Origin: Lachnoclostridium edouardi
GTDB lineage: Bacteria > Bacillota > Clostridia > Lachnospirales > Lachnospiraceae
NCBI RefSeq assembly: GCF_900240245.1
Contig: NZ_OESQ01000001.1
Coordinates: 1,354,156-1,418,155, forward strand
Reading direction: 5' to 3'
Length of the DNA: 64,000 nt
The translations under genes were made by a program, and so were the position numbers. The notes below the pieces were generated by a model that made no database searches, was not told where the DNA came from, and was given only the letters and a program-made list of their open reading frames with translations. This document shows positions 38,113 to 55,556 of the stretch, piece by piece (the stretch's first letter is position 1; each line of letters begins with the position of its first letter).

Positions 38113-38118
38113 AGGCTG

Positions 38119-38961
38119 TTACTCGTAAATTTTAATCTGCATACTGGAGTGGGAAGGCACTCTTTTTTCCTCTGGAGGCAGCTTCATATAATCTCCATAA
38201 AGCTCCTTTAACACCTGATGATAACCTACAGGCGCCATGTAATATCCGCCTTCAAATTCCAGCAGCGTACATTTGCATACGCTTTCTCTGTCCACAGTTA
38301 CATATAAAAAATCAGGCTGGTAATTGCTGTAATAGAAACGGCGGCACTTCTTTCCGTCCCACATAACCGCCAGCTTTTCCTGAAATTTGTTCAGCCACTT
38401 CATAGGCACCGCCTTTCCCACAAAAGAAAGGCAGCTGATCATAAGCTTTTCAGCCCCGCGATAGCGGGACATATCTAAATGGTATCTGTGGCCCATTGCC
38501 ATACCGTATATGGCCTTGTGGAGGAATCTGACTATTCCCGCCTCCCAGTCTCTGTCCGGCAGCTCGTCCAATATAAATATATCCACCCACAAATGGGTCA
38601 GCTTGTTGTCGTAATATTCCATTTCCGGCCCGTCCTCATGCTTTTTGCTGGGCAGGTAAAGAATTCTGGGGGTAAAATCATAAAACCCTTTTCCCCGGTG
38701 AAATGCCTTATAATCCATCAGCTCCATAGTATCCGGCAGCTCTCTTTTCACCACTTTCATAAAAGCCTTATAATTTGACCTGGTAAAGGCAATGTCCACA
38801 TCATCATCCCAGGGAATAAATCCCTTATGTCTTACTGCTCCTAAAAGAGTGCCGGCGTCCATTAAATATTTGATTTTATATTTCCGGCAGATCCGGTCTA
38901 CCTCTTTTAATATTTTCAGGTTTGCCTGGTGTACTTTTTCCAGTCCGTGACTTTCTTCCAT
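38119..38961 (-). CDS. LicD family phosphotransferase
   Basis: 280 residues. The LicD/fukutin nucleotidyltransferase-like core is clear: [35 protein letters not shown] (residues about 30-65), containing the DDDVDI metal-binding acidic cluster. LicD proteins attach phosphocholine, phosphoribitol-like or similar phosphate groups to surface glycans. No choline uptake or activation genes (licA, licB, licC) lie in the locus, so the donor is undetermined. Downstream of rfbH by 17 nt with an AGACGAGG site. Confidence 0.9.
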
Positions 38962-38978
38962 TTTATAACCTCGTCTCC

Positions 38979-40319
38979 TTAAATAAGCACTGCCTTCTTA
39001 ATGGTTTCCGCCATATAATCAATCATCTCATCTGTCATCCCAGGGTACACCCCAACCCAAAAAGTATCTTTCATAATTCTGTCTGTATTTTTCAGGTCTC
39101 CGCAGATTCTGTATCCTTCCTTACTTCCCCTCATCTGGTCAAAGCAAGGATGCTTTGTCAGATTTCCTGCAAACAGCATACGGGTCTGAATTCCGTTTTC
39201 TTCTATATACTGAACCGCTTTATTTCTGTCTGTGCCCTCCTTACAGGTAATTAAAAATCCAAACCAGCTGGGGTCTGAATTCTCACAGGCCTCCGGCAAA
39301 ATCAGCTTTTCTTCTGTTCCTGCCAGTCCTGCCTTCAGACGTGCAAAATTATGCTTTCTTCTTTCTACAAAGGAAGGGAATTTCTTTAACTGAGCGCAGC
39401 CTACTGCAGCCTGCATATCAGTAGCCTTTAAATTATAGCCAAAATGAGAGTACACATATTTGTGGTCATATCCTAAAGGCAGCTCCCCGTACTGTCTGTC
39501 AAATCTGTGGCCGCAAAGGTTATCCCGTCCAGAAGGACAAACGCAGTCTCTGCCCCAGTCTCTGAAGGAGCGGATAATTTTATTTAACAGAGGATTGTCT
39601 GTATAAACGGCTCCTCCCTCTCCCATTGTCATGTGGTGAGGCGGATAAAAGCTGGAGGTGCCTATATCGCCTATGGTGCCTGTAAACTTAGTATTTCCGT
39701 CTATGGTATAGCGGCTTCCCAAGGCGTCGCAGTTGTCCTCCACCAGCCATAAATTATGTTTACGGCAAAATTCCTTCACTGCCTTTAAATCAAATGGATT
39801 TCCTAAGGTGTGGGCGATCATTACTGCCTTTGTCTTAAGAGAATATGCTTCCTCCAGCTTTGTCACGTCAATATTGTACTGAGGAATCGTTACGTCCACA
39901 AATACAGGCACTGCCCCGTACTGAATCACCGGAGTAACTGTTGTAGGGAAACCGGCTGCCACTGTAATAATCTCGTCCCCTCTTTTTACCTGTCTGTCCC
40001 CTAAAAGAGGAGAGGTCAAGGTCATAAAGGCCACCAGATTGGCTGAGGAGCCGGAATTAACAAGGGCGCAGTATTTCACTCCCAGGTACTCTGAAAGACC
40101 TTTTTCAAATTCATCTGTATATCTGCCTGAGGTCAGCCAGAATTCTAAGGAGCTGTCCACCAGATTTACCATCTCCTCATGGTCATATACGCGGGAAGCA
40201 TAGGAAATTCTGTCTCCCGGCCGGAACTCCTTTTTCTTGTTGTGGTATGTGTCGCAGTACTGGGAAACCATTTCTAAAATCTGCTGTCTGGCCTCCTGCT
40301 CTGTCATATTGTCAAACAT
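38979..40319 (-). CDS. rfbH: CDP-6-deoxy-D-xylo-4-hexulose 3-dehydrase (E1, RfbH/DdhC type)
   Basis: 446 residues. PMP- and iron-sulfur-dependent C-3 deoxygenase of 3,6-dideoxyhexose biosynthesis. It has the aminotransferase-like DegT fold, but the PLP-binding Lys is replaced by His in [14 protein letters not shown], the hallmark of E1 dehydrases. The [2Fe-2S] cysteines are visible: [17 protein letters not shown] with three Cys, plus an upstream Cys in [11 protein letters not shown]. It follows rfbG in the order F-G-H. The partner reductase (E3/DdhD) and the terminal sugar-forming reductase are not in the window. Confidence 0.94.
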
Positions 40320-40334
40320 GTTTTTCCTCCTTTT

Positions 40335-41393
40335 CTATGAGAAAAATTCTCTGATTTGTCTGTCTGTCACCGCCAGCATATCTTCCCCTGCCAGCCATGA
40401 TTTAGACCACTGAACTGTTTTTTCCACAGCCTCTTTTACATGGTATCTAGGCTGCCAGCCAAACACCTTTTTCACCTTGGAGCAATCCAGCTTCAGGAAA
40501 TTCGCCTCGTGGGGCCCTCCGTCATACTGGTTGATCCACTTAGCGTTCTCCCCCCACTGACTGCAGAAAAGATCCACCAGCTGCCCTGTAGTAATACAGT
40601 CCCTGTCGTCAGGGCCTACATTGTAATAGCCCTCATAAGCTTTGTCCTCATACTGCTTCATAGCTATTGTTAAATACATGGCTAAAGGCTCCAGCACATG
40701 CTGGTAAGGTCTGGTGGAAAACGGATTTCTCACAATAATATCTTTGCCCCGGGAGGCCGCTCTAATACAGTCCGGAATAATTCTGTCATTGGCAAAATCT
40801 CCGCCGCCGATTACATTTCCCGCCCTGGAAGTGGAGATGGCGCAGCCGCCGTCTGCAAAAAAGGATTTCTGGTAGCTGTGAGTAATAAGCTCTGAACAGG
40901 ACTTGCTGTTAGAGTATGGGTCATAGCCGTCTAAGGGATCATTTTCCCTGTAGCCGTACTCCCACTCCTTGTTTTCATATACCTTATCTGTTGTTACATT
41001 TAAAAATGATTTTACGCTGTCCGCAGTGCGGACGCACTCTAAAATATTCACCGTACCCATAACATTTGTCTCATATGTGTACGCCGGATTTTTGTAAGAA
41101 TCTCTTACAATAGGCTGGGCTGCCAGGTGAAACACTATTTCAGGCTTTGCCTGATGAAATACTTTTTTCAGTCCCTCTAAATCTCTAATATCTCCTATTA
41201 CGCTGTTTACAGTTTTCTCCAGCCCTGCAATCTGAAATAAGGACGGATCTGTAGGTGGATTTAAGCTGTAGCCTGTTACCTTTGCCCCAGAAAGCGTTAA
41301 AATGCGAATCAGCCAGGAACCCTTAAAGCCTGTATGGCCTGTTACAAGAACGGATTTACCTTTATAAAATTTCTCCAGCTCTGTTAAATTCAT
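40335..41393 (-). CDS. rfbG: CDP-glucose 4,6-dehydratase
   Basis: 352 residues, short-chain dehydrogenase/reductase fold. NAD-binding GHTGFKGSWL (about residues 18-27), the catalytic YSNSK (Y-x-x-x-K), and the family's VTTDKVYENKEW. It converts CDP-glucose to CDP-4-keto-6-deoxyglucose, the second step of the CDP-dideoxyhexose pathway. Adjacent rfbF and rfbH make the assignment firm. Confidence 0.95.
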   Translation of the reverse strand: MNLTELEKFYKGKSVLVTGHTGFKGSWLIRILTLSGAKVTGYSLNPPTDPSLFQIAGLEKTVNSVIGDIRDLEGLKKVFHQAKPEIVFHLAAQPIVRDSYKNPAYTYETNVMGTVNILECVRTADSVKSFLNVTTDKVYENKEWEYGYRENDPLDGYDPYSNSKSCSELITHSYQKSFFADGGCAISTSRAGNVIGGGDFANDRIIPDCIRAASRGKDIIVRNPFSTRPYQHVLEPLAMYLTIAMKQYEDKAYEGYYNVGPDDRDCITTGQLVDLFCSQWGENAKWINQYDGGPHEANFLKLDCSKVKKVFGWQPRYHVKEAVEKTVQWSKSWLAGEDMLAVTDRQIREFFS

Positions 41394-41410
41394 AGATTAT
41401 CTGCCTTTCT

Positions 41411-42187
41411 CTACTTATCCCAGATTTTCCACGGCGCCTTTCCAGACTGCCACAGTTCCTCCAGCTTTTTCATTTCTCTCTGAGTGTCCATACACTGCCA
41501 GAAGCCGTCGTGGTAAAAGGACTTTAACTGCCCCTCTTCTGCCAGACGTTTCATTGGCTCCTGCTCAAAAACAGTGCTATCGTCCTTTAAATAATGAAAG
41601 ATTTCAGGCTGAAGCACCATAAAGCCGCCGTTAATCAGGCTTCCGTCTCCCTCTTCCTTTTCCCGGAAAGAAGTAATCGTATTATTGTCTCCGATTTCCA
41701 GCACTCCCTTTAGCTGGCTTAAATTAACAGTTGTAATTGTAGCTATTTTCCCGTGGCTTTTGTGGAAGTCCAACAGCTTCTTTAAATCTACATTGCAAAC
41801 CCCGTCCCCGTAAGTAAGCATAAACGGCTGGTCTCCAATAAAGGGCTGAATCCTTTTTACTCTTCCTCCAGTCATAGTAAGCAGCCCTGTATCCACCAAA
41901 GTTACTTTCCACGGCTCCGCATAATTATTGTGCACCTCCATCTGATTATTGGCTAAATCAAAGGTTACATCTGAGGTGTGAAGGAAGTAATCTGCAAAAA
42001 ATTCTTTTACTACGTACTGTTTGTATCCCAGACAAATGACAAAGTCATGGAACCCAAATTGGGAGTAATATTTCATAATATGCCAGAGAATCGGTTTCTC
42101 CCCTATCTCAATCATAGGCTTTGGTTTTAAATGGCTTTCCTCGCTGATTCTAGTTCCCAGGCCTCCTGCCAGTATTACTACTTTCAT
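41411..42187 (-). CDS. rfbF: Glucose-1-phosphate cytidylyltransferase
   Basis: 258 residues from ATG 42187 (MKVVILAGGLGTRISEES). Nucleotidyltransferase fold: the N-terminal LAGGLGTRI signature, KPKPMIEIGEKPILWHIM, TYGDGVCNVDL (Mg-binding Asp) and INGGFMVLQPE. Makes CDP-glucose from CTP and glucose-1-phosphate, the first step of CDP-dideoxyhexose synthesis. A longer frame would start 14 codons earlier inside the upstream membrane-protein gene but lacks a ribosome binding site. Confidence 0.95.
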   Translation of the reverse strand: MKVVILAGGLGTRISEESHLKPKPMIEIGEKPILWHIMKYYSQFGFHDFVICLGYKQYVVKEFFADYFLHTSDVTFDLANNQMEVHNNYAEPWKVTLVDTGLLTMTGGRVKRIQPFIGDQPFMLTYGDGVCNVDLKKLLDFHKSHGKIATITTVNLSQLKGVLEIGDNNTITSFREKEEGDGSLINGGFMVLQPEIFHYLKDDSTVFEQEPMKRLAEEGQLKSFYHDGFWQCMDTQREMKKLEELWQSGKAPWKIWDK

Positions 42188-42212
42188 TTTATATTCCCCT
42201 TTCCCTCTTCTG

Positions 42213-43592
42213 TCAGTTTCTGAATACATTTAAATGATTATCCTCCAGGATTTTTAAAGCCCTGCGGATTCTCTCCGGATCTTTATATTGGAACCATGTT
42301 TTCAGTTCATCATCATCATAGCTGTTGTAATCCCTGGCCATTTCCTCCACAGTCATCCCCCACTCCTTCCTGTTGTGGGCGATTCTGATTTCTCTTTCTG
42401 TAGTATAAAAATTTCCTGCCAGCATAATCACGCACCAGGCGGCAGCTGCAATTCTTATCCATTTTCCCTTTAGCCTGTCCCACAAAAGTCCTGCCGTCAG
42501 CAGGATTCCCAATATACCCACCTGAAACTGAAGGGCGTAGCGGGAGCTCATGCCGTAGCTGTCTCTAAGGAATATCCACCGGGACATTAAAATCAGCACG
42601 TGGTTCATTCCCCCTGCCATAATCAGCATCAGGGGAAGAATGGTTTCTTTATACAATTCATAGCGGAAATTCAGCCACAAGCCCACTGCATAAGCCATCA
42701 TTACAAGCAGCCCCAATCCGTACACGCAGGCGTAGGGAATCAGGCCTTTATTCACCAGCTCCTCAAATGCCTCCTGTCCCACCGCCATACCTGCAAAGGA
42801 CTTGATAAAAAATTTTACAAACAGCATAGGCTGCTCTAAAAGCACAGGCTGCACAGGCCCGTCATAAGCGCCTGCGTGTTCTGTCACGGCAAAGGAGCTG
42901 CTCCACATGTATAAAAACAGCGGAATTAAGGTACAGACTGCATATTGTCCATAACGTTTATCCCATTTTTTTGTCAAAATCCTTTTTCTGGCTCCGCAAA
43001 AGCCAAAAGCCAGGAGAAGGGTGCCTGTGTATACTGCGCAGTAAGGCCCTGCCACACAAAGAGTAATAAAAAACGGCAGCGCCATCATGCGGATATGATC
43101 TCCTTTTTTCCCCTCCCCGCTTTCCATGCGGTCAAATACAATATAGTGGTAGTAAAAGCAGGCAAAGGCCAGAAAATGCACCCAGCCGGTTCCGTTTGTC
43201 AGCATCTCCCACTTATTTAAGCTGAAAAACAAAAGCATCAGCCATAAAAACCATCCTGTATGCAGCTTTCTTCTCCTGGAATACCCCCCTAAGAAAACAC
43301 CTGCCAGACCCAGGCCGGCAGCCCCCAGCATTAAGTCAAACAATACAGAAAATCCCAGTACCTCCACATTAAAAGCTCTCACTGGAAAGTTTACGGGAAT
43401 TCTGGTAAGAATATCTGCCACAAAAAACTTTTCAGGGTTCCACACATCAGGCAGGTAGGAAATAATCTGTCTAATATAGTCTGAGTAGGGCATATCGCAG
43501 GCCGCGGCCCTTACATACCAAAATACAAATAGAAATCCTGCCAGAGGCAGGGCGTAATATATCCAATTTTCCTTAATACTTTTTTTATTCAT
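42213..43592 (-). CDS. Polytopic membrane protein of the glycan locus
   Basis: About 459 residues from ATG 43592 (MNKKSIKENW), which overlaps the preceding glycosyltransferase stop by 8 bp; an ATG three codons earlier is also possible. About eleven to twelve hydrophobic spans, with short charged loops and a cytoplasmic-like C-terminal tail of about 60 residues (VEEMARDYNSYDDDELKTWFQYKDPERI). An early acidic loop after the first span (ACDMPYSDYIRQI) fits GT-C-type enzymes (DUF6056-like). Could be a GT-C glycosyltransferase or a polymerase-like protein. Function unproven. Confidence 0.7.
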   Translation of the reverse strand: MNKKSIKENWIYYALPLAGFLFVFWYVRAAACDMPYSDYIRQIISYLPDVWNPEKFFVADILTRIPVNFPVRAFNVEVLGFSVLFDLMLGAAGLGLAGVFLGGYSRRRKLHTGWFLWLMLLFFSLNKWEMLTNGTGWVHFLAFACFYYHYIVFDRMESGEGKKGDHIRMMALPFFITLCVAGPYCAVYTGTLLLAFGFCGARKRILTKKWDKRYGQYAVCTLIPLFLYMWSSSFAVTEHAGAYDGPVQPVLLEQPMLFVKFFIKSFAGMAVGQEAFEELVNKGLIPYACVYGLGLLVMMAYAVGLWLNFRYELYKETILPLMLIMAGGMNHVLILMSRWIFLRDSYGMSSRYALQFQVGILGILLTAGLLWDRLKGKWIRIAAAAWCVIMLAGNFYTTEREIRIAHNRKEWGMTVEEMARDYNSYDDDELKTWFQYKDPERIRRALKILEDNHLNVFRN

Positions 43593-44377: not shown

Positions 44378-45019
44378 CTACAAAGCAAAAAAATGCTCCT
44401 CCAACATAAGGCAAAAGGCGTGGTAAATAGGAAGATGAAGCTCCTGGATTTTATAAGTCTCCGGCTCAGGAACTATTACCGCAACGTCTGCAGCCTTTCC
44501 TAAAAGACCTCCGTCCTTTCCTGTAAGAGCTGCAATTTTCATCCCCTTGGCCTTGGCTACAGCCACAGCATAAGAAATATTTTTAGCGTTTCCCGAGGTG
44601 GAAATCCCTAAAAATACATCCCCCTCTTTTCCGTATCCATATGTCTGCTGGGCCACCGCCAAATCTCCGTCCACATCATTTAAATACGCCGACGTTAAAG
44701 CCGGGTGTCCCACTAAAGAAATCGCAGGCAGACATCCCTGAAGCTTTGCCGCTAACTCATCTGCCTTTTCAGGATCTGCTTCTTTCAGCCTGGCCTCAAA
44801 CTCCGGTGAAACTCTTCTTTTCTTTAAAAAACCTTTCATCAGCTCCCCTACAATATGCTCCGAGTCTGCGCAGCTGCCGCCGTTTCCTGCAATCAGCAGC
44901 TTCCCACCCTGCTCATAGCAGTCTGCCGCCAGCTGATATAAATTCCAAATATCCTCCTCCACCTGCTTTAACACAGGATATCTTTCTGTCAGTTCATTTA
45001 AAATCTGCCTTTCCTTCAT
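44378..45019 (-). CDS. gmhA: Sedoheptulose-7-phosphate isomerase
   Basis: 213 residues, SIS-domain isomerase. AGNGGSCADSEHIVGELM (about 44-61) carries the phosphate loop and the zinc/acid-base residues His and Glu; LGISTSGNAKNISYAVAVAK is the second SIS motif; the C-terminal IQELHLPIYHAFCLMLEE has the remaining His. Converts sedoheptulose-7-phosphate to D-glycero-D-manno-heptose-7-phosphate. About 20 residues longer than many homologues owing to an insertion after residue 70 (EARLKEADPEKADELAAKL). Next to gmhB and hddC, so part of a heptose branch. Confidence 0.93.
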   Translation of the reverse strand: MKERQILNELTERYPVLKQVEEDIWNLYQLAADCYEQGGKLLIAGNGGSCADSEHIVGELMKGFLKKRRVSPEFEARLKEADPEKADELAAKLQGCLPAISLVGHPALTSAYLNDVDGDLAVAQQTYGYGKEGDVFLGISTSGNAKNISYAVAVAKAKGMKIAALTGKDGGLLGKAADVAVIVPEPETYKIQELHLPIYHAFCLMLEEHFFAL

Positions 45020-45038
45020 GTGATTTCCTTTCTGTAAT

Positions 45039-45626
45039 TTATATCATAGGAGCGCTTTCCTGTGATAAAATAAAATCCACAGCCTCCTTCATAGTAGATG
45101 CATAAAAGCAATATATTTTTTCTGCCTTTCCTGCCTTCACCTGGCTGTGAAACTCTTTTCCATAGCCGGTGCCTATAAGGATACCCGGCACTCCATATTT
45201 GTTTCCCGCCTCCACGTCGATCAGCTTGTCCCCTATCATATAGGAAGCTTTTTTGTCTATAGAAAACTCCTGCTCCGCCATTTGAAACATGCCGGTTCCC
45301 GGCTTGCGGCAGCTGCACTCTGTTTTATATTTTCCAATTCCGTGGTGAGGGTGATGAGGACAGTAATAAAACTTGTCAATATGCGCCCCGGAAAGGCTTA
45401 AAACCTGGTTCATATACTGGTGAAGACGATTTACGTCCTCCTCCGTATAATAACCTCTGGCCACTCCTGCCTGGTTGGTGATTACTACCACCTTATATCC
45501 TGCCTGGTTCAGCCTTTTTATTGATTCCGGCACATCTGAAAAAAGCTCCATGTCCTCCGGCTTATAAAGGTAATTAACTTCTTTATTTAAGGTGCCGTCC
45601 CTGTCTAAAAATACTACTTTATCCAT
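45039..45626 (-). CDS. gmhB: D-glycero-D-manno-heptose 1,7-bisphosphate 7-phosphatase
   Basis: HAD-superfamily phosphatase, about 195 residues from ATG 45626 (MDKVVFLDRDGTLNKE). The alternative start at 45650 overlaps hddC and has no better ribosome binding site. Motif I is DRDGT with nucleophile Asp; motif II is VITNQAGVARG; the zinc-binding loop is CPHHPHHGIGKYKTECSCRKPGTGM; motif III/IV is MIGDKLIDVEAG. Removes the 7-phosphate before nucleotide activation by HddC. It has 3 nt between its start and the hddC stop. Confidence 0.93.
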   Translation of the reverse strand: MDKVVFLDRDGTLNKEVNYLYKPEDMELFSDVPESIKRLNQAGYKVVVITNQAGVARGYYTEEDVNRLHQYMNQVLSLSGAHIDKFYYCPHHPHHGIGKYKTECSCRKPGTGMFQMAEQEFSIDKKASYMIGDKLIDVEAGNKYGVPGILIGTGYGKEFHSQVKAGKAEKIYCFYASTMKEAVDFILSQESAPMI

Positions 45627-45628
45627 TT

Positions 45629-46351
45629 TCAGCTTTGATCTCCCCGCCACGTAATCACGCCTGATTTCACATCCTGAATAAATTTAAAATAATCCTCCGG
45701 AACGCCGATGTCAATAAAATATCCTTCATTCACAAAGCCTCCTAAGCGCTTCTCTTCCTTCAGCCATTTAGGAATCATCTGGTTTTCTAAGGACACCTGC
45801 CCTTCTGGAATCTCTTCTAAAAGCTTTGTTTTCATTAAATAAACTCCGCCGTTAATTGTGCCCGGCTCTTTTATCTCTGACTTTTCATTAAACCCTGTAA
45901 GCATATGATCTGTAAGAACTGCCTTTCCATATCTGGAAATGTCAGGAACCTGCCGTAAAACTAAAGCCATATCCAAACTTTTTTCTTCTGCAATTTTCTT
46001 TAAGCGGCTGTAATCTAAACGGTAAAAGGTATCGGCATTTAAAACGAAAACCTGCTCCTCGGTCACAAACCGCCCTGCATTTTTAATGGCTCCTGCAGTG
46101 CCTAAAAGAGTTTCCTCATAAGCGTAGGATACGCAAATTCCAAAGTCCTTTCCGTCCCCAAAATATTCCTCCACCATAGACCCTTTATAGCCTACGGCAA
46201 AAATAATATCCTGAATTCCGTTTTCAGAAAGCTCTTTAATTACATACTCCATAAAAGGTTTATCTTCTATAAGCGCCATAGGCTTAGGCCTGTCGCTTAC
46301 TACGCTTCTCAGCCGCGTTCCCAGCCCGCCTGCCAGTAATATTGCCTGCAT
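45629..46351 (-). CDS. hddC: D-glycero-alpha-D-manno-heptose 1-phosphate guanylyltransferase
   Basis: 240 residues, nucleotidyltransferase fold with LLAGGLGTRLRSVVSDRPKPMALIEDKPF at the N-terminus, EETLLGTAGAIKNA, VLNADTFYRLD (Mg-binding Asp) and FIDIGVPEDYFKFI. The neighbouring gmhA and gmhB make HddC (GDP-heptose synthesis) more likely than a mannose or glucose pyrophosphorylase. The expected heptose-7-phosphate kinase gene hddA is not in the window, so one step is missing here. Confidence 0.88.
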   Translation of the reverse strand: MQAILLAGGLGTRLRSVVSDRPKPMALIEDKPFMEYVIKELSENGIQDIIFAVGYKGSMVEEYFGDGKDFGICVSYAYEETLLGTAGAIKNAGRFVTEEQVFVLNADTFYRLDYSRLKKIAEEKSLDMALVLRQVPDISRYGKAVLTDHMLTGFNEKSEIKEPGTINGGVYLMKTKLLEEIPEGQVSLENQMIPKWLKEEKRLGGFVNEGYFIDIGVPEDYFKFIQDVKSGVITWRGDQS

Positions 46352-46395: not shown

Positions 46396-47493
46396 TCATT
46401 TTTCTTTCAAAGTTTCTACCTGGTTTCCATTACATTTTTCAGCTGTTTTTCTGCCGCCTGACAATATTCTGCCGCCGCTGTGGAGAGCAGCCAGAAAAAT
46501 CCCCACTAAAACAGCTCCCAAAACCTGATATCCAATGCCTATAATATTTTTCTGAATATAGTTTTCCCTGATCAATAAAGGCATATATTCAATCACCACA
46601 ATATTCATAACAATAGGGGCATATATATGGTATCCCATAATGTACAGGCTGCACCGGCCGCACAAGGCCAAAAAACCTTTTATAACAGGCGCTTTAGTTA
46701 AAATCCGGCTGACTATAAAGGTAAGATAAATACCTGCCAGAGCTGTTAAGTAAAATAGAAAAACATTTCCAAATACTGCCGCGTTCATATCTACACGGCC
46801 GTTTTTTAAAACGCCCAACAGCCATATCAAAGCCGCAGCCAAGGCTCCTCCTGCCTGAAAGGCAAAGGCCTTTTTTTTGTCCTGCATCTGCAGCCAAAGC
46901 TCCGCCCTTCTAAAATAGGCGCCGGCCAGAAAAAATATCTGGGAAATAAGAGCCAGTTCTATACTCCAGGGCAGCCGCTTTACATGCTTTAACAGCCAAA
47001 AGCCCAGTACTGCCGCTGCCAGACAAAGAATTTCCTCCAGCCCAAAAACCTTTTTTCCCGCCTTTTTTTCAGCGGCCAGAGAAATTCTGTGAATGCCGTA
47101 AAATGCCAAATTGGCCAAAAAGAACATAGGCATAAACCACAACGGCGTATTGACGCTGTCGCTTCCGGCAATATTTCCTTGAAATATTTTGGCTATGCCA
47201 ATGTGAAGGGGGGTGTACCCCTCAGGCCAGGAAAGGAGAAGGGATACAATGGCAAAAAGAAAATAAGGACGTACCAGCCTGTCAAATTTTTTCACAGCAA
47301 ATTCTCCGGCCGTTCCATCCTTTTTCCCGTCAATCCAGTATCCGCCTAATAAAATAAATAAGGGCAGATGAAAGCTGTACACCAATGTGCACAGCCTTCC
47401 ATCATATGAAAAGTAGTTCTGATGTCCCAGAACAATTAAAAGAATCCCTATTCCCTTTGCAATGTCTAAATAAAGCTTTCTTTCCTGTTTCAT
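46396..47493 (-). CDS. Acyltransferase 3 family membrane protein
   Basis: 365 residues, about ten membrane spans. The N-terminus has the acyltransferase-3 signature YLDIAKGIGILLIVLGH (catalytic His near residue 23), followed by FHLPLFILLGGYWID and KKFDRLVRPYFLF. Such proteins O-acetylate or acylate surface sugars. Its ATG overlaps the stop of the large glycosyltransferase (ATGA), so they are translationally coupled. Confidence 0.92.
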   Translation of the reverse strand: MKQERKLYLDIAKGIGILLIVLGHQNYFSYDGRLCTLVYSFHLPLFILLGGYWIDGKKDGTAGEFAVKKFDRLVRPYFLFAIVSLLLSWPEGYTPLHIGIAKIFQGNIAGSDSVNTPLWFMPMFFLANLAFYGIHRISLAAEKKAGKKVFGLEEILCLAAAVLGFWLLKHVKRLPWSIELALISQIFFLAGAYFRRAELWLQMQDKKKAFAFQAGGALAAALIWLLGVLKNGRVDMNAAVFGNVFLFYLTALAGIYLTFIVSRILTKAPVIKGFLALCGRCSLYIMGYHIYAPIVMNIVVIEYMPLLIRENYIQKNIIGIGYQVLGAVLVGIFLAALHSGGRILSGGRKTAEKCNGNQVETLKEK

Positions 47494-50400
47494 CGTTTAA
47501 AGTCCTCTTCTATCCTGCTCCAGGCTCCGTCTATACTAAAATACTTTTTAATATATTCCTGAGTGGCCAGACACAGTCTCAGGCATTCTTCTGGATTCTT
47601 ATAAAGATCCGCCGCTTTTTCAGCAAACAGCTGCTTGTCATCCTCCACCAAAAGCACTGTTTCTACATCAGGAATTCCCTCTGCTCCCACAGAGGTAGTA
47701 ATAATAGGAGCTCCGTTGTAAATAGCCTCTACAACCTTTCCCTTTACTCCCGCGCCGTAGCGCAAAGGCACTACTACAATCCGGCACTCACTGTACAGTC
47801 TGGCCAGCTCCTCTTCACTTACAAAGCCTTTTACTATAATGCCGTTTTCCGGCTGCTCCAAAGCTTTAATCTCCTCTGTTACCTTAGAGCCTACAATGTA
47901 AAACGGCGCTCCTGTTTTCCTTCTGATCTCCGGATAAATTTCTTTGGCAAACCACAATACTGCGTCCGCATTTGGAGGATGGGAAAACCCGCCTACAAAC
48001 AGCAGCCCTTCCCTCTTTTCAAAATCCTGATTTATATTTTCCAGAAATTCCTCATATACATAGGCCGTAATATCCTTTACCTTAATTCTGGAATCTATGT
48101 CGTGAATGGCCTCCCGCTCAATATATGAGGGATAGTAGGAAATATCTGCCTTTTTCATAAGAGACAGCTCTACAGAACGCCAATAGTCAGAGGCTTTCTT
48201 CTTTTCCTCATCCCCAGTCAGCGCATATTCCCTTCCCTCCCTTAGGAAATGAAGGTCATGGCCATAATAAATTACCTTTATATCTGTATATTTTTTTATA
48301 AAATCAATGTATTTGCTGGCAATGTGAGGCCTATTTAAATAGGCGTACCCGATTTCACTGCCGTTCTCCTTCAGCCAGTCCCAAATTTTAGACTGGAATT
48401 CCGGTCCGTAAAGTATTTCAATTCCCATTTGCTGAAGCGCTGTAGAATACGGCTCCTGGTGAAGGAAATTATCTCCTAAAAACTTTACTACATAACCTTT
48501 TTTCAGGAACATTTTCAAATACTGATATGTGGTCTTAGAACCTGCGTCCCGGTCAAAGGTAGGCACATAATGATCCACCACCAGTATAATTTCCTTGCCC
48601 ATACTTCTTTCTCTGGCTCTAATCGGGTTGGGATTTCCATTGTTTACACACTGTTTCTTAAATTCTTCCGCCCACTTTTCCTGCAGCTTCCTGCTGTTCT
48701 CCACCTGATACCGCTTTAACCCTGTTCCGTTTACATCAGTGCCGTTGGAGACTCCCTCAAAGTGAATCACCTTTGAAAGAGGCTGGTAAACAACTCTGTA
48801 CCCTGCTTTTCTCACCTCAAAAGCCAGGTCTGAGTCTTCGCAGTAAGCCGGAGCAAATCTTTGGTCAAAGCCTCCGATTTCATTCCACAGCTTTAACGGC
48901 AGCAAAATAGCTGCTCCTGAAATATAGTCCACGTCTTTTACATAATTATATTCCGGCTTATCCGGGTCGTCCAGCCGTCCGTAATTCCACCCTGAGCCGT
49001 CGCTCCATATAATGCCGCCGGCCTCCTGAAGACGGCCGTCGGGATAAACCAGCTTGGAGCCCACCATTCCAATAGATGAATCTGACTCAATTAAGGATAC
49101 TAAAGAGGACAGCCAATTTTCTGTCACCTGAGTGTCATTGTTAAGAAACATAATATACTTGCCTCTGGCAGCCTTGGCGGCCTGATTACAGTTTCTTAAA
49201 AATCCCTGATTTGTCTGATTTCTCATAATTACTGCATTTTCCACATATTTATTCAAATCCTTAGTGGCGTCTGTAGATACGTCGTCTGCAATAATTACTT
49301 CATAACTTATATCCTTTGTGTGCTCCTCAATAGACCTGAGGCAGGCATAAGTATAGTGGATCTGGTTGTAAACAGGTATCACTATAGATACTAAAGGCGC
49401 CTCTGCTCTGGGAAGACGTACTTTGCCGTATATTCTGTAGTCATCTCCGATTTTAAAATCACCGTCTATTTTATTTCTGCCTTCTTCTGTAAAATACAGC
49501 TTTAAATATTGGCCTGGGTGAACCAAAGTATTTTTTCCGTAGGACATGATTTTTCTTTTTCTTGTGCCCTTTGGAAAGAAGCGGTTATACACTGCCCCCA
49601 GTTTTCTTCTCACTCTGTAGGGCAGGGAAATGTGGCGGTTCAGCACCTGAACAGTCTGAGCCAGCTCCCCGTTTTCTCTTCTTAAATCACTGATAATGAT
49701 TTCCAGATTTGTCACGTGATTTTGAGTCAGGCGCTGAATTTCTTTTAGCTTGCTCAGCTCTGTATCCCTGTTCTCCAGCTCATACTCCAGCTCTTTCATA
49801 TGAGAAAGCTGTTCTCTGGCTTCCTTCATTTCCTCTTCCACCCCTACCAGATCTTCCACAGGCCTGTAGGTTTTTCTGTAATTTAAAAGATATGTTTCCT
49901 GGTTTTCTCCGTGCACATAGTGCTGAAACCTTTCTTCCATTTCAGCAAAGACTTTGCACTGTTTTTCTGAAACGCCAAATTCCTGGAAATATTCTTCCAA
50001 ATTGGCGTATTCCATTAAGCTGTAATATTTTCTGTAAAAATAAAACAAAATTCTATAACGGACAAAGGACAGAGGCACCGGAAAATCATAAACCCACTCA
50101 TAATCAATTCCATACCAACCGTCTTCTGTATCCAGTATGTTTTCCAAAAGGGCGTCTATGTTTGTCACAGTCATAGAATTGTCTTCTATACGGACAAATT
50201 CTCCAAACACCTTGCCAAATTGTTTTGTAGGAGTAAAGGGAATCAGGCAGCCTTCCTTTACACTGCATATTTTTTCTATTGCTGACTCTAACGCCGCCAC
50301 AGGAGCCCTGCCCTCTGTGATTTCATGGCCCAGCTGTTCTGCTAAAGTCTTTCCCTCTAAATATGGAAAACGCACTTTAAAACCGTCTGCAGACACCTCC

Positions 50401-50600
50401 GGCTTTGCCGCCTTTAAAAAACAATGCTGTTTTCCAAGACCTTCATATTTATCCAAAAAAGAGCAGATATGAGCCCTTCCCTTTTCTGTAAGAGCCTGCT
50501 TCTCCACCCAGGTAACGCCGTTTTCTTCCAAAATCACTGTCTTAATCTGAAATTCTTCTTTTCTTGTCCTGTTGTATTTTACAAACTTAATCTGTTCCAT
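47490..50600 (-). CDS. Multidomain glycan protein: kinase-like domain, coiled coil, GT2 and GT4 domains
   Basis: 1036 residues in four parts. (1) Residues 1-240: a small-molecule-kinase-like region with a possible N-lobe Lys34 (WVEKQAL), TNIDALLEN (D149 and N154 in a DxxxxN spacing like HRDxxxxN) and GIDYEW (D166, like DFG). (2) About 252-325: charged coiled coil. (3) About 402-640: GT2 domain, SIVIPVYNQIHYTYACLRSIEEH, DDVSTD, FLNNDTQVTENWL. (4) About 680-1030: GT-B/GT4 domain with RYGAGVKGKVVEAIYNGAPIITT. It overlaps the upstream methyltransferase gene by 14 bp. The kinase call rests on motif spacing only. The combination and position suggest a WbdD-like chain-capping or length-control role. 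Confidence 0.85.
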   Translation of the reverse strand: MEQIKFVKYNRTRKEEFQIKTVILEENGVTWVEKQALTEKGRAHICSFLDKYEGLGKQHCFLKAAKPEVSADGFKVRFPYLEGKTLAEQLGHEITEGRAPVAALESAIEKICSVKEGCLIPFTPTKQFGKVFGEFVRIEDNSMTVTNIDALLENILDTEDGWYGIDYEWVYDFPVPLSFVRYRILFYFYRKYYSLMEYANLEEYFQEFGVSEKQCKVFAEMEERFQHYVHGENQETYLLNYRKTYRPVEDLVGVEEEMKEAREQLSHMKELEYELENRDTELSKLKEIQRLTQNHVTNLEIIISDLRRENGELAQTVQVLNRHISLPYRVRRKLGAVYNRFFPKGTRKRKIMSYGKNTLVHPGQYLKLYFTEEGRNKIDGDFKIGDDYRIYGKVRLPRAEAPLVSIVIPVYNQIHYTYACLRSIEEHTKDISYEVIIADDVSTDATKDLNKYVENAVIMRNQTNQGFLRNCNQAAKAARGKYIMFLNNDTQVTENWLSSLVSLIESDSSIGMVGSKLVYPDGRLQEAGGIIWSDGSGWNYGRLDDPDKPEYNYVKDVDYISGAAILLPLKLWNEIGGFDQRFAPAYCEDSDLAFEVRKAGYRVVYQPLSKVIHFEGVSNGTDVNGTGLKRYQVENSRKLQEKWAEEFKKQCVNNGNPNPIRARERSMGKEIILVVDHYVPTFDRDAGSKTTYQYLKMFLKKGYVVKFLGDNFLHQEPYSTALQQMGIEILYGPEFQSKIWDWLKENGSEIGYAYLNRPHIASKYIDFIKKYTDIKVIYYGHDLHFLREGREYALTGDEEKKKASDYWRSVELSLMKKADISYYPSYIEREAIHDIDSRIKVKDITAYVYEEFLENINQDFEKREGLLFVGGFSHPPNADAVLWFAKEIYPEIRRKTGAPFYIVGSKVTEEIKALEQPENGIIVKGFVSEEELARLYSECRIVVVPLRYGAGVKGKVVEAIYNGAPIITTSVGAEGIPDVETVLLVEDDKQLFAEKAADLYKNPEECLRLCLATQEYIKKYFSIDGAWSRIEEDFKR

Positions 50601-51357
50601 TTTTTCTCCATATCATTAAAAAAGAATTTGCAAATTCTTCAAACTGGCCCTCCTCACAAATCATGTCGTAGGAAGCCCCAATGTCCGCCTTTAAAAATTC
50701 CGGATAATCGTAGGAAATAACAGTGCCTGATAAATCTCCCTTTTCCGGCAGATAATTTTCCGAATAAATCTCCACAGGCAATTTATAGTCCGGAAATGGA
50801 TAATAGCACACAGCCTCCGGCCCCATTAACTTTTTCAGCCGCTTTCTCCCAATAGAAAACTGTTCTCTGGGCGCTCCCGCCCAGTGCTTTAAACCAGAGG
50901 GATTATCTGCCGCCGCCATTAATACTCCTCCAGGCGCCAGAAGGGATTTGGCTGTTTCCAGTTCCCTGGAAGCCTTATCAGTCAATGTGCCTGGAAATAC
51001 AATGTAATGAAACGGGCCTTCTTTCTCTAAAGCAGAATTTTCCAGGTCTCCCAGATAATAAGAAATATTGCCCTGCCCGGACCACCTTTTTTCGTTTACA
51101 GCCAAGTCATTTTCGTCTCTGTCCAAAACGTAAACTTTAGCCAGCCTTCTGGCAAATAATCCAGTTAAAGCTCCACAGTCAGAACCTACCTGAAGCAGAT
51201 TCTTTTCCTTATCAAAGGGATACCACTCCAGAAGATTTTCCCTGGCCTTTGACAATGCATATAAATACTCCAGATTTTTTTCCTCTGAAAGCAGCTTTTC
51301 TATGTTGCCCTCGTACTGTTCCAGCAGCTTAATCAATTCCTTTGCCCTGTTTTCCAT
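50587..51357 (-). CDS. Class I SAM-dependent methyltransferase
   Basis: 256 residues. The Rossmann SAM-binding site is NLLQVGSDCGALTGLFA (motif I, about 53-69), then KVYVLDRDEND (motif II acidic residue) and GDLENSALEKEGPFHYIVFPGTL. The N-terminal 45 residues are helical and charged. It sits between wzt and the kinase-like/coiled-coil/glycosyltransferase gene and overlaps the latter by 14 bp. In that setting it could methylate a sugar or a phosphate at the glycan end, as the methyltransferase domain of WbdD does; this is inference. Confidence 0.85.
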   Translation of the reverse strand: MENRAKELIKLLEQYEGNIEKLLSEEKNLEYLYALSKARENLLEWYPFDKEKNLLQVGSDCGALTGLFARRLAKVYVLDRDENDLAVNEKRWSGQGNISYYLGDLENSALEKEGPFHYIVFPGTLTDKASRELETAKSLLAPGGVLMAAADNPSGLKHWAGAPREQFSIGRKRLKKLMGPEAVCYYPFPDYKLPVEIYSENYLPEKGDLSGTVISYDYPEFLKADIGASYDMICEEGQFEEFANSFLMIWRKNGTD

Positions 51358-51370
51358 TGCGTATACCTCA

Positions 51371-52723
51371 TTATTTATTAGGCGTAAGCACGGCCTCCAC
51401 CTGGGATTCCATGTCGTAAACTCCTACTGTATTTTTATTAGAAATAACTGTAATATTGGCCACGTCGTACAGGCGGTGATATACTACGTGCTCTCCATTT
51501 TCAAAGCCGGTGCAGCTCATGGAAAGCAAATATTCTCCTCCCTGAAGGGTCATCTTCTGCGTAAAGGAAACCTCATAAATATCTCCTGCCTTTACCGGCT
51601 TAATATCTGTGCCCTCAAACATAGTGTTGGTGCCGGATAAGTCGGTTCCCTTCTTATCTTTTATAGTATAGGTAAAAATAGGGGCCTGTATATCAGCGTG
51701 AAACTGAATTTTTTCTTTTATTGTAAACATTTCCCCTTTTAAAAGCAGATTTGTCAGGCTGCCTTTGGCGTCCACCAGACCTAAGTCTACAATCTCCGCC
51801 CGGCCGTCCCCATATTCAGTGCGATTGGCATTAATAGTAATCTTGTCCTTCATCAGTCCCTGATGCTTTCCTGCTTCAGCCTGGAAATTCTTATTTTCCA
51901 AAAGATTTTCTTCCTCCAAGGCATCCTCCCCGGAAAAATCATTCATCTTTGCCAGATCTTCCTCCAGAGAATCCATTCTCCCTGCCAAAATCTTTTTGTA
52001 TAAATCCACAATTCTTCCCGGAGCGCCTTCTGCCACAAACTCGCCCTTATTCAGCAGAACAGCCTTATCGCAATATTTAATAATACTGCCCATATCGTGA
52101 GTTACCATTAAAATCGTGGTGCCGTTTTTTCTGATTTCCTCCATTCTGCGGTAACATTTAGACTGGAAGAAAACATCGCCTACAGAAAGAGCCTCGTCCA
52201 CAATTAATATTTCCGGCTCTACATTAATAGCCAGGGCAAATGCCAGACGGACAAACATACCGCTGGAATAGGTTTTTACAGGCTGGTACACAAAATCCCC
52301 AATATCTGCAAAATCCAGAATATCCTGAAGCTTTCCCTCCATTTCCTTCCTGGAAAACCCCATCATAGTGCCGTTCATATATATATTTTCAATTCCCGTA
52401 TAATCCATATTAAAGCCTGCCCCTAATTCCAGCAGGGCAGAAATCACTCCGTCTACCTTAGCCTCCCCGGAAGTAGGAGTAAGGACTCCTGTAATAATCT
52501 TTAAAATTGTGGACTTTCCGGAACCGTTAGTGCCTATAATCCCTACTGATTCCCCTTTTTTCACATGAAAGGAAATTCCGTTTAACGCATAAAAGTCCCT
52601 GTGATAATTCTTATGCACCGGACTTAAAGATTCCTTTAAACGGTCAATAGGCTTATCATATAATTTATAAATTTTCGTCACATTTCTGACCTCAATAGCA
52701 TAATCGCTGTTTGTTTTATTCAT
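51371..52723 (-). CDS. wzt: Polysaccharide ABC transporter ATP-binding protein with C-terminal glycan-binding domain (Wzt)
   Basis: 450 residues from ATG 52723 (MNKTNSDYAIEVRNVTKIY), with CGGAGG 5 nt upstream. The ATPase domain (about 8-245) has Walker A GTNGSGKST, the signature TYSSGMFVRLAFALA and Walker B ILIVDEALSVGD, closest to polysaccharide/teichoic-acid exporters. A linker (about 250-300) joins a Wzt_C-type domain (about 305-445: RTEYGDGRAEIVDLGLVD, SGTNTMFEG, GGEYLLSMSCTG). In Gram-negative O9a/O8 systems this domain binds the modified non-reducing end of the glycan before export. Its permease partner (54155-54967) is separated by two other genes. Confidence 0.92.
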   Translation of the reverse strand: MNKTNSDYAIEVRNVTKIYKLYDKPIDRLKESLSPVHKNYHRDFYALNGISFHVKKGESVGIIGTNGSGKSTILKIITGVLTPTSGEAKVDGVISALLELGAGFNMDYTGIENIYMNGTMMGFSRKEMEGKLQDILDFADIGDFVYQPVKTYSSGMFVRLAFALAINVEPEILIVDEALSVGDVFFQSKCYRRMEEIRKNGTTILMVTHDMGSIIKYCDKAVLLNKGEFVAEGAPGRIVDLYKKILAGRMDSLEEDLAKMNDFSGEDALEEENLLENKNFQAEAGKHQGLMKDKITINANRTEYGDGRAEIVDLGLVDAKGSLTNLLLKGEMFTIKEKIQFHADIQAPIFTYTIKDKKGTDLSGTNTMFEGTDIKPVKAGDIYEVSFTQKMTLQGGEYLLSMSCTGFENGEHVVYHRLYDVANITVISNKNTVGVYDMESQVEAVLTPNK

Positions 52724-52783
52724 TGGATTCCTCCGTCGGTGGTTCATAAACCTGAATTTATATGGCTTATGGCCTGCGTGGAC

Positions 52784-52953: not shown

Positions 52954-53418
52954 ATGGATTTTTTAACAATGACAATCGTCAAACAGAAAAATATAGCATT
53001 AATTGCCCATGACAGTAAAAAGCATGAGCTGATTCAGTGGTGCGAAGCAAATAAAGAAATTCTGAAGGGACATTTTCTCTGTGGAACAGGTACCACAGCC
53101 CGTATGATTACAGAGTACACAGGACTTCCTGTAAAAGGTTACAACAGCGGACCTTTAGGTGGAGATCAGCAGATCGGCGCAAAGATTGTAGAGGGGAGAA
53201 TAGATTTTGTGATTTTCTTTTCTGATCCTCTCACAGCTCAGCCCCATGACCCTGACGTAAAAGCCCTGCTGCGCATCGCCCAGGTATACGATATCCCAAT
53301 TGCCAACAACAAAGCTACAGCGGACTTTATGATTACCTCTAAGTTTATGGATTCTGAGTATGAGCACAGGATTATTAACTTTCACCAGAATATTAAGGAG
53401 CGGGCCAACACTTTGTAA
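52954..53418 (+). CDS. mgsA: Methylglyoxal synthase
   Basis: 154 residues. Converts dihydroxyacetone phosphate to methylglyoxal, a bypass under sugar-phosphate stress. Motifs: IALIAHDSKKHELIQW, HFLCGTGTTARMI, SGPLGGDQQIG, DFVIFFSDPLTAQPHDPDVKALLR and NNKATADF, with the catalytic Asp and His. Ribosome binding site AAAGGAGGG. It is the only plus-strand gene within the glycan locus and separates wzt from wzm, so it is probably a resident core gene into which the locus was assembled, or an inserted one. Confidence 0.95.
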   Translation: MDFLTMTIVKQKNIALIAHDSKKHELIQWCEANKEILKGHFLCGTGTTARMITEYTGLPVKGYNSGPLGGDQQIGAKIVEGRIDFVIFFSDPLTAQPHDPDVKALLRIAQVYDIPIANNKATADFMITSKFMDSEYEHRIINFHQNIKERANTL

Positions 53419-53527
53419 AACCTTAAAAGTGATTTATATGGCCGGAAATTTCAGCAGCCCTGAGAAGGATTTATTTGTATTCTTCACAGGGCTGTTATGT
53501 TATTATGTTTCATTTTTCGTAAAAAGC

Positions 53528-54115
53528 CTACACCTCTCCCCCGTGGTCTCTTAACCACTTTCTTCTGACTTTATAATCAGGCAGAATCTGCTCCACCTCT
53601 TTCCAGAAAAGTGGGGAGTGGTTCATATGCTTTCTGTGAGCCAGTTCGTGAACCACCACATAGTCTAACACTTCCTCAGGCATTAGGGCCAGCTTCCAGT
53701 GAAAGTTTAAATTTCCCAGAGAGCTGCAGCTGCCCCACCTGCTTTTGGCGGCTTTCACTGTGATGCGACCGTATGTTACTCCCATTGCCTTTGCAAAATA
53801 AGCTGTCCGCCGCCTTAATTGCTCCCCTGCCATTTTTCTGTACATCTGTTCCAATTCAGGCTGTACTTCATAATCCTTAGGCGGAATCTGCTCCATTCTC
53901 TTTTTCTTTTCCTGGAAAAACATATACTTCTCCAATATCCAGGGGCTTTTTATTCCCACAAATTCTTTTACCTTATAATCCGGGGTTCTTTTAGGCACTC
54001 TCGCCTTTACCTTAGCCTCTGCCGTTACCTCCAGCCCCATAGTTCTTCTGGAGGAGTAAATCACTTCCACAGGAATACAGATTTTTTCGCCTTGAAGTAA
54101 AATTTCCCTGAGCAT
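53528..54115 (-). CDS. YgjP-like zinc metallopeptidase (DUF45/SprT-like fold)
   Basis: 195 residues. The zinc motif VVHELAHRKHMNHSPLFWKEVE has HExxH plus a third His, preceded by AKSRWGSCSSLGNLNFHWKL, the diagnostic YgjP/DUF45 pattern. Cytoplasmic, no signal peptide. Homologues are annotated as M48-type peptidases or UTP-related hydrolases; the true substrate is unclear. It follows wzm by 39 nt on the same strand, but a link with glycan export is not evident. Confidence 0.88.
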   Translation of the reverse strand: MLREILLQGEKICIPVEVIYSSRRTMGLEVTAEAKVKARVPKRTPDYKVKEFVGIKSPWILEKYMFFQEKKKRMEQIPPKDYEVQPELEQMYRKMAGEQLRRRTAYFAKAMGVTYGRITVKAAKSRWGSCSSLGNLNFHWKLALMPEEVLDYVVVHELAHRKHMNHSPLFWKEVEQILPDYKVRRKWLRDHGGEV

Positions 54116-54154: not shown

Positions 54155-54967
54155 CTATAATACATCTGAAAAATGTGGTCTAAGTTTTTTAAATACCTTT
54201 AAGCCTGCTAAAAACATTACTGCTGTAAACGCCCAGAAGTACAAGGTCAAAGTGGGCCTTTCCCAGAACCAGTTTCCTTCCAGAATACTGCCTCTGTAGC
54301 CTGCCACAATATAATAAAAAGGATTCAGCTTAAATACAGTCAGCACCCAGGGAGCCTTGTCCGTAAACATTTCTTCCTGGTACATAATAGGCACCAGCCA
54401 CATGCCAAACTGAAGGCAAATACTTACAATTTGAGCCATGTCTTTAAAAAATACGTTTACAGCGCAGGTAAAATATCCGATTCCAAGAGCTAAAACTGCG
54501 GCGGCAAAGCTATAATAAAAAATCTGGAGCCATGTAATCTTAGGAGCCTGACCGTAGCACAAGGTCATTGCCAGCATAATTAAAATAAAAAAGCCGTGGA
54601 CCATAAGACAGGAAATCAGTTTAATAACCGGCAGAATCTCCACCTGAAACACTACTTTTTTTACCAGGTAGTGATATTCCTGAAGACACCCGGTAACTGT
54701 ATTCAACACCTCGCTGTAAAAAAACCAGGGCACGATTCCCGGCACCAGCCACAGCACATAAGGCACTCCCGGCACAGGCGGCACACTTTTAAATCCCACC
54801 TGGAAAATAAAGAAGTAAATCAGCACTGTCACCACCGGCTGAACAAACATCCACACTACGCCAAAATAGGAACCTACAAATCTTTTTCTAAAATCAGCCT
54901 TTGACAGATCCCAAATCAGCTTCCGTTTATTTACAATCTCTTTTAGCAGAGAAAGCACATATCTCAT
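54155..54967 (-). CDS. wzm: Polysaccharide ABC-2 type transporter permease (Wzm)
   Basis: 270 residues, six predicted membrane spans. N-terminal amphipathic region LIWDLSKADFRKRFVGSYFGVVW is the coupling element of the TagG/Wzm/RfbA family. LNPFYYIVAGYRGSILEG near residue 225 is the family C-terminal motif. It should pair with the Wzt ATPase encoded 1.4 kb downstream beyond ygjP and mgsA, although wzm and wzt are normally adjacent. Confidence 0.93.
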   Translation of the reverse strand: MRYVLSLLKEIVNKRKLIWDLSKADFRKRFVGSYFGVVWMFVQPVVTVLIYFFIFQVGFKSVPPVPGVPYVLWLVPGIVPWFFYSEVLNTVTGCLQEYHYLVKKVVFQVEILPVIKLISCLMVHGFFILIMLAMTLCYGQAPKITWLQIFYYSFAAAVLALGIGYFTCAVNVFFKDMAQIVSICLQFGMWLVPIMYQEEMFTDKAPWVLTVFKLNPFYYIVAGYRGSILEGNWFWERPTLTLYFWAFTAVMFLAGLKVFKKLRPHFSDVL

Positions 54968-55001: not shown

Positions 55002-55556
55002 CTAAAACTGGAAGGTTTCTTTAAAGCCTCCCCATTTCTGATCTTTTTCAGAAATAATCAGCTCCATTCCAGGTTCTATAGGCCACTGAATTCCAATTTC
55101 CGGATCATTATAGGCCATTCCTCCCTCGTCTCCGGGATGGTAGAAGTCAGTGCATTTGTATGCAAATTCCGCCTCCTCAGATAATACAAGAAATCCGTGG
55201 GCAAACCCTTCTGGAATGTAAAACTGCTTTTTATTTTCTGCTGACAACACAACTCCAAACCATTTTCCATATGTTTCTGAGTCAGCTCTTAAATCTACAG
55301 CCACGTCAAAAACCTCTCCTCTCACAACCCGAACCAGCTTTCCCTGGGGAAACTGCTTCTGATAGTGAAGTCCTCTCAGCACGCCCTTTACTGACATAGA
55401 CTGGTTATCCTGAACAAACACCATGTCAAGCCCTGCCTCCTGAAAGTCGTTTTGATTATATGTTTCCATAAAATAGCCTCTTTCATCCTTAAATACTGTA
55501 GGCTCGATTACATACAATCCTTTAATATTACATCGAGTTACCTTTATCTTTCCCAT
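55002..55556 (-). CDS. rfbC: dTDP-4-dehydrorhamnose 3,5-epimerase
   Basis: 184 residues, cupin fold. Motifs: TVFKDERGYFMETYNQNDF, VQDNQSMSVKGVLRGLHYQ (catalytic His), VDLRADSETYGKW, and FYIPEGFAHGFLVLSEEAEFAYKCTDFYHP (catalytic Tyr). Third step of dTDP-L-rhamnose synthesis. The other steps (rfbA, rfbB, rfbD) are not in the window, so this copy serves either a rhamnose pathway completed elsewhere or another dTDP-deoxysugar made with the DegT aminotransferase. Confidence 0.95.
   Translation of the reverse strand: MGKIKVTRCNIKGLYVIEPTVFKDERGYFMETYNQNDFQEAGLDMVFVQDNQSMSVKGVLRGLHYQKQFPQGKLVRVVRGEVFDVAVDLRADSETYGKWFGVVLSAENKKQFYIPEGFAHGFLVLSEEAEFAYKCTDFYHPGDEGGMAYNDPEIGIQWPIEPGMELIISEKDQKWGGFKETFQF

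Follow-up and report, generated by a model that had tools for sequence, protein, structure and literature searches.

The 64,000-nucleotide stretch of Lachnoclostridium edouardi DNA analysed here (contig NZ_OESQ01000001.1, positions 1,354,156 to 1,418,155; hereafter the window) contains three consecutive genes, all on the minus strand, for an exporter ATPase, a methyltransferase and a large protein that combines a kinase domain, a coiled coil and two glycosyltransferase (GT) domains. The locus is likely to be a chain-termination and polymerisation module of a surface glycan exported by an ATP-binding cassette (ABC) transporter, and a Gram-positive relative of ORF6 in Klebsiella pneumoniae O7 (ORF6-O7).

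The wzt gene (51371-52747) encodes an exporter ATPase of 458 amino acids (Pfam ABC_tran, 2.9e-22) with a C-terminal cap-recognition domain, Wzt_C, at residues 309-446 (51410-51823, minus strand; PF14524, 6.8e-43, 146.5 bits against a cut-off of 30.4). Its best-scoring solved relative is 8dku, which is named as an ABC transporter. The original prediction, made from the letters and translations of the window, had placed the end of this gene at 52723; the frame was right, but 52723 is an internal ATG and the full open reading frame (ORF) extends to 52747. The second gene (50587-51357) encodes a stand-alone class I S-adenosylmethionine (SAM) methyltransferase of 256 amino acids, recognised by profile search and hhalign and proposed to methylate the cap phosphate. 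The third (47490-50600), defined by its ORF and Pfam GT matches, encodes a protein of 1036 amino acids that contains a kinase domain with an APH/AmiN-like fold in the predicted structure (residues 1-240, 49881-50600), a coiled coil seen as a model helix with a heptad period and proposed to act as a ruler (residues ~250-325, 49626-49853), a GT2 domain (residues 405-650, 48651-49388; Glycos_transf_2, 3.1e-25 at 405-526, with solved GT2 enzymes matching up to residue 649) and a GT4 domain (residues 668-1034, 47499-48599; Glyco_trans_1_4, 1.8e-24 at 865-1002), all on the minus strand. The methyltransferase stop and the kinase start overlap by 14 bp (50587-50600, minus strand), as read directly from the sequence. 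The order of the three genes, this overlap and the Wzt_C identity of the C-terminal domain of Wzt had all been predicted and are borne out.

Kinase domain, methyltransferase and coiled coil

Structure prediction and fold searches with Foldseek and VIA agree that residues 1-240 adopt a kinase fold, as had been proposed. Among the matches listed, the best in both searches were APH, macrolide and AmiN phosphotransferases, and a few eukaryotic protein kinases also matched. The model of the full-length protein has a predicted local distance difference test score (pLDDT) of 75.9 and a predicted template-modelling score (pTM) of 0.44. The residues singled out by the original prediction, K34, D149, N154 and D166, occur without exception in all 61 rows of the kinase alignment (A5), which contains the window protein and 60 of the 80 loci described below. 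The spacing of the D/N/D residues is 5 and 12, and D166 sits in a DYE motif that is invariant in the 61 rows, at a position where WbdD has DFG.

No Pfam kinase match was obtained in the first 245 residues of the protein, nor in any of the 61 family members at E-values up to 0.1, where 13 weak families were seen, none of them a kinase. Single-protein and profile searches against solved chains did not find a known kinase. WbdD has a structure in the PDB; at E-values up to 10 the kinase profile retrieved only two chains, both endoxylanases at E ~1, and no WbdD chain. WbdD was also absent among the best 50 Foldseek or VIA fold matches listed, an absence that does not exclude it.

The methyltransferase gave four weak Pfam methyltransferase matches, every one below the curated cut-off, and its profile (A4, 17 rows) matched solved SAM methyltransferases at 1.1e-11, with WbdD not among the 60 listed of 115 solved-chain matches. 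Alignment A1 used 43 of 120 homologues listed out of 458. A scan of genome contigs yielded 252 confirmed stretches, the best 80 of which were kept as loci L001-L080; the nearest are from Lachnospiraceae. A methyltransferase is present in all 80, fused ahead of the kinase in 42 (two of which, L032 and L069, have broken frames) and encoded by a separate gene in 38. In the split loci, with ORF starts set mechanically, the two frames overlap in 33 of 38 cases, and by exactly 14 bp in 16. Wzt_C is found in 79 of the 80 loci, the exception being L052, which sits at the end of a contig. With 80 genome loci sharing the arrangement, chance can be set aside, and the repeated fusion of methyltransferase and kinase is good evidence that both act together. 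As 42 loci carry the two on one polypeptide, the split is not peculiar, and the window, where they are separate genes, represents a split variant of ORF6-O7-type terminators rather than a standard member.

Identity to the window across L001-L080 is 74-90% for GT2 and 73-90% for Wzt_C, versus 40-67% for the kinase and 31-56% for the methyltransferase. Wzt_C is better conserved than these two, though they should make the cap that it reads.

Twenty regions from the wider family, chosen for variety, include free methyltransferase-kinase proteins of 681-714 amino acids (L081-L085, L097), separate methyltransferases with kinase-only proteins of 412-431 amino acids (L092, L094, L100), separate methyltransferases with kinase-GT2-GT4 proteins (L090, L091) and kinases with two GT2 domains (L088, L093, L095). 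L086-L089 are the kinase regions of four genomes that have no Wzt_C match, and L086 and L087 encode methyltransferase-kinase proteins of 556 and 627 amino acids. Two other candidates for free methyltransferase-kinase proteins, P0078 (650 amino acids) and P0103 (648 amino acids), end at the start of a GT2 domain, may be cut short and were not relied on. In a quick tree built from 101 kinases, in which 31 of 98 inner branches are open and several are long, the split/fused label changes 10 times, at least four of these changes being forced by starred branches, versus 33 times with shuffled labels.

These data bear on a capping that involves methylation only. WsaE, of the S-layer glycan of Geobacillus stearothermophilus, contains a methyltransferase and two GT domains, is presented in the relevant passages of its source with no kinase, and is thought to make a 2-O-methyl cap (PMC2943079). 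If the window module worked in this manner, the methyltransferase would place O-methyl straight onto the sugar at the chain end, and the domain resembling a kinase would be a catalytically dead scaffold; this would fit with the lack of a Pfam kinase match in all 61 members. However, the invariance of K34, D149, N154 and D166 is unlike a decaying pseudokinase, the kinase is accompanied by a methyltransferase in 80 of 80 loci, and kinase activity has been proven for the related ORF6-O7 domain, where mutation of the Asp abolishes it (PMC11231755). We consider methyl-only capping improbable.

The coiled coil lies between the terminator part and the GT modules of the 1036-residue protein. Close to the predicted boundaries (about 252-325), residues 250-321 form a single helix in the full-length model, at a low pLDDT of ~40-53, and in a 44-row alignment the hydrophobicity peaks at a period of 3.5 in three of three overlapping stretches, with 46, 43 and 103 of 5000 shuffles being as strong. 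The spacer from the DYEW motif of the kinase to the GT2 start is 239 residues in the window and 235-252 residues in the 76 of 80 loci where it was measured, the other four being fused loci without both motifs in one frame. Among 44 proteins, the coil stretch spans 80-91 residues, versus 239-283 residues for the kinase. A constant coil length fits the requirement of a ruler, but shared descent would give the same.

Homology to ORF6-O7-like proteins

ORF6-O7 contains a methyltransferase, a 223-residue domain missed by annotation, a carbohydrate-binding module (CBM), a coil and two GT2 modules (PMC11231755). The placement of GT domains after the coil, pointed out in the original prediction as a difference from WbdD, is thus already known from K. 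pneumoniae O7. AmiN is the closest fold to the ORF6-O7 kinase domain, in which D441A abolished phosphorylation, and the product is a methyl-phosphate, partly unmethylated, at position 3 of the terminal rhamnose (PMC11231755). The authors call this kinase domain quite different from that of WbdD (PMC11231755).

A tblastn search of 72,556 plasmid records with the methyltransferase-kinase relative P0078 retrieved two, both Gram-negative, with the match confined to the methyltransferase part. They encode a protein of 649 amino acids in Citrobacter braakii and one of 1457 amino acids with two GT2 domains in Pseudomonas asturiensis, and each gene follows ABC permease and ATPase genes, the ATPase bearing Wzt_C. 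The P. asturiensis residues Y28, Y66, G91, G93, E112 and Y158 have the exact residue numbers published for ORF6-O7, and its D443, conserved in 49 of 49 rows, is near D441 of ORF6-O7. With the Gram-negative set enlarged by 47 further matches, hhalign aligned methyltransferase with methyltransferase at 99.9% (E 4.8e-35, 222 columns) and kinase with kinase at 94.8% (E 5.3e-8, residues 3-241); three unrelated control pairings gave 0.3, 0.2 and 2.7%.

Searched at the DNA level, the Citrobacter wzt matched 225 of 5426 E. coli genomes, and three were examined among the 40 matches listed. E. coli NT1F25 carries an ORF6-O7-like methyltransferase-kinase-GT2-GT2 gene (L112:7199-11038, 1279 amino acids); wzm, wzt and genes for dTDP-rhamnose accompany it, and insertion sequences lie on either side. 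In E. coli KBN10P04869, a protein of 705 amino acids with no Pfam match and with coil-like repeats at its end (L111:7280-9397) directly follows a wzt with Wzt_C; it gave no methyltransferase or kinase match and is a candidate terminator. The third protein reached is annotated as GT99.

The original prediction had tentatively assigned the kinase to the WbdD type, which would make the locus a true eukaryote-like kinase module, split in Gram-positives. WbdD is one protein of 708 amino acids with a eukaryote-like kinase that has DFG (D369), and it is described there as having no GTs (PMC3482155). The order of methyltransferase, kinase and coil is shared, the free methyltransferase-kinase relatives are close to WbdD in length, a few eukaryotic protein kinases are among the fold matches, and the D/N/D spacing is similar to the 5 and 13 residues between D351, N356 and D369 of WbdD (PMC3482155). 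Nevertheless, the best fold matches are to phosphotransferases of the APH, macrolide and AmiN kind, DYE replaces DFG, the kinase profile at E-values up to 10 reached two endoxylanases and no WbdD chain, and homology to ORF6-O7-like proteins fits better. A WbdD-type kinase is therefore highly improbable.

Linkage to Wzt_C and the surrounding genes

The co-occurrence of kinase and Wzt_C was analysed in 250 genomes of the Hungatella hathewayi family (Lachnospiraceae in the NCBI taxonomy; locus L012 is from genome G002), with a kinase profile built from the same family. Wzt_C was found in 149 genomes and the kinase in 129; both were present in 125, the kinase only in four, Wzt_C only in 24 and neither in 97. 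Co-occurrence in related genomes had been anticipated and is seen here as well as in the 80 loci. When Wzt_C matches were divided into strong (best E at most 3.4e-38) and weak, a divide chosen after the scores were seen, the kinase was present in 122 of 123 genomes with a strong match, the exception having its Wzt_C 283 bp from a contig end on the downstream side, and in three of 26 with a weak one. The kinase position is listed for 127 of the 129 kinase genomes, and lies within 6 kb of Wzt_C in 119 of them. A phylum-wide search matched seven of 299 genomes, at least three of which (G002, G186, G213) belong to the family sample, so in the form captured by the profile the kinase is mostly a trait of the family.

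This linkage is relevant to the alternative that kinase and methyltransferase put methyl-phosphate on internal sugars of every repeat, neither ending nor measuring the chain. Terminal and internal modification are indistinguishable from the present data, and the neighbourhood includes a gene of the LicD family, whose enzymes are of a decorating type. However, the kinase is linked to Wzt_C in nearly all genomes with a strong match and occurs in only four of 101 where Wzt_C was not found, Wzt_C elsewhere binds a terminal cap, and the coil separates the modifying from the polymerising domains. We regard internal decoration as slightly less probable still than methyl-only capping.

Upstream, wzm, the permease of the glycan exporter (54155-54967, minus strand; ABC2_membrane, 1.1e-11), does not adjoin wzt: a gene for a YgjP-like metallopeptidase and one for methylglyoxal synthase, the latter on the opposite strand, lie between them (52954-54115). 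In each of the nine loci nearest to the window (L001-L009), the methylglyoxal synthase gene mgsA lies at most 2.2 kb before wzt; five of these show wzm on its far side, and wzm and wzt are adjacent in other loci, such as L012-L017. The rmlC gene for dTDP-rhamnose supply is located at 55002-55556 (minus strand; TIGR01221, 8.6e-80, above cut-off).

Downstream of the kinase-GT gene, the cluster continues with a membrane acyltransferase gene (46396-47493, minus strand; Acyl_transf_3, 2e-25), hddC-, gmhB- and gmhA-like genes (44378-46351, minus strand; NCBIfam HddC 5.9e-56, GmhB 1.3e-51, GmhA 4.9e-36) and a CDP-dideoxyhexose set. The HddC, GmhB and GmhA matches all fall short of their equivalog cut-offs, and TIGR00213, a subfamily model for GmhB, exceeds its own; judged by these matches, the genes probably supply activated heptose. 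The genes at 37174-42229 (CDP-3,6-dideoxyhexose genes of the RfbF, RfbG and RfbH types, a LicD-family protein and a GT of the undecaprenyl-phosphate-sugar type) probably serve side-chain decoration of the glycan. An L,D-transpeptidase with ChW and choline-binding repeats is encoded at 61856-63289; together with the LicD gene in the same window, it hints at phosphocholine on the cell surface.

Proposed mechanism and comparison with known terminators

The kinase fold class, the homology that ties both kinase and methyltransferase to the Gram-negative module, the constant methyltransferase-kinase partnership in 80 loci, the close linkage to Wzt_C and the near-constant heptad coil were all computed here. 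They establish anatomy, fold, homology and linkage, and the capping chemistry and the binding of the cap by Wzt_C are predicted from them. In the proposed mechanism, the GT2 and GT4 domains would extend the chain at the membrane, and the kinase, at the opposite tip of the coil, would phosphorylate the non-reducing end of a chain that has grown far enough to meet it. The separate methyltransferase would then methylate the terminal phosphate and stop growth, and, as in known systems, Wzt_C would bind the cap and restrict Wzm-Wzt export to finished chains.

Several observations weigh against a terminator of the ORF6-O7 kind. Besides the low confidence of the coil helix, the Foldseek template-modelling (TM) scores, by query length and among the matches listed, are a modest 0.35-0.55. 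The comparison with ORF6-O7 was made via its published residue numbers and Gram-negative relatives, and the number match is limited to P. asturiensis, the Citrobacter and E. coli NT1F25 relatives being shifted. A plain kinase hidden Markov model reached 10.6 bits against the P. asturiensis protein and no significant score against those of Citrobacter and E. coli, and the evidence for kinase homology to the Gram-negative set consists of one profile-profile match plus motifs. K34 aligns with a His in P. asturiensis, so this Lys is not common to the wider family. A methyltransferase was seen in 18 of the 20 wider regions and in neither L088 nor L089, and four kinase genomes have no Wzt_C match among the 250. 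Lastly, these are related genomes, so the co-occurrence p value overstates their independence, and their draft state also limits the statistics.

A broader proposal is more tentative, and we hold it to be possible rather than probable: most Wzt_C-bearing Lachnospiraceae (125 of the 149 in the sample) may make a length-measured glycan ended by methyl-phosphate via cryptic kinases unrecognised by Pfam, in a module repeatedly re-cut into free, polymerase-fused and methyltransferase-split forms, of which the split form could leave bare-phosphate caps as a second, tunable cap state. On the main reading, the cap-and-ruler logic of Gram-negative O antigens, kinase step included, extends to a large Gram-positive family common in the gut. 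A cryptic kinase family gains a testable function, the chain end of surface glycans in gut Clostridia is predicted, and the natural split, fused and free forms make the ruler idea testable. The literature searched, which left out most subscription papers, showed no paper on the module in Lachnospiraceae; chain termination was surveyed in Glycobiology in 2019 (Mann, Kimber, Whitfield), and that survey could already list it. Chain capping itself is already known, and what was not found in that literature is the kinase-bearing form of terminator in Lachnospiraceae. The earlier idea of Gram-positive chain termination with a built-in ruler is partly supported: its parts, folds and co-occurrence stand, a WbdD type is not supported and the split is not peculiar. 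Work on Geobacillus WsaE had earlier put forward capping with Wzm-Wzt export in a Gram-positive (PMC2943079).

The terminator strategy is said to be widespread across bacteria, and Wzt_C binds the terminal cap in characterised systems (PMC11231755). The window resembles ORF6-O7 in having a methyltransferase followed by a cryptic AmiN-like kinase with a catalytic Asp, a coil, GT modules and wzm-wzt in the cluster, and profile comparison shows its kinase and methyltransferase to be homologous to proteins with this domain layout. It differs in that a separate gene encodes the methyltransferase, a GT4 takes the place of the second GT2, the stretch from kinase to coil shows no CBM-like domain, and its host, judged also by the nearest loci, is a Gram-positive member of the Lachnospiraceae. 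With WbdD of E. coli O9a and K. pneumoniae O3 it shares the methyltransferase-kinase-coil order and a partner Wzt with a cap-binding domain, and the wider family includes free methyltransferase-kinase proteins; unlike WbdD, it has DYE, contains GTs and has a separate methyltransferase. Like WsaE, the module is Gram-positive, combines a methyltransferase with two GT domains and is proposed to export a capped chain via Wzm-Wzt, but it includes a kinase-fold domain, and the WsaE cap is an O-methyl. Finally, in WbbB of K. pneumoniae O12 a Kdo cap residue is added by an N-terminal GT (described in PMC11231755), and there, as in the window protein, terminator, coil ruler and polymerase GTs are joined in one chain, the WbbB cap being Kdo.
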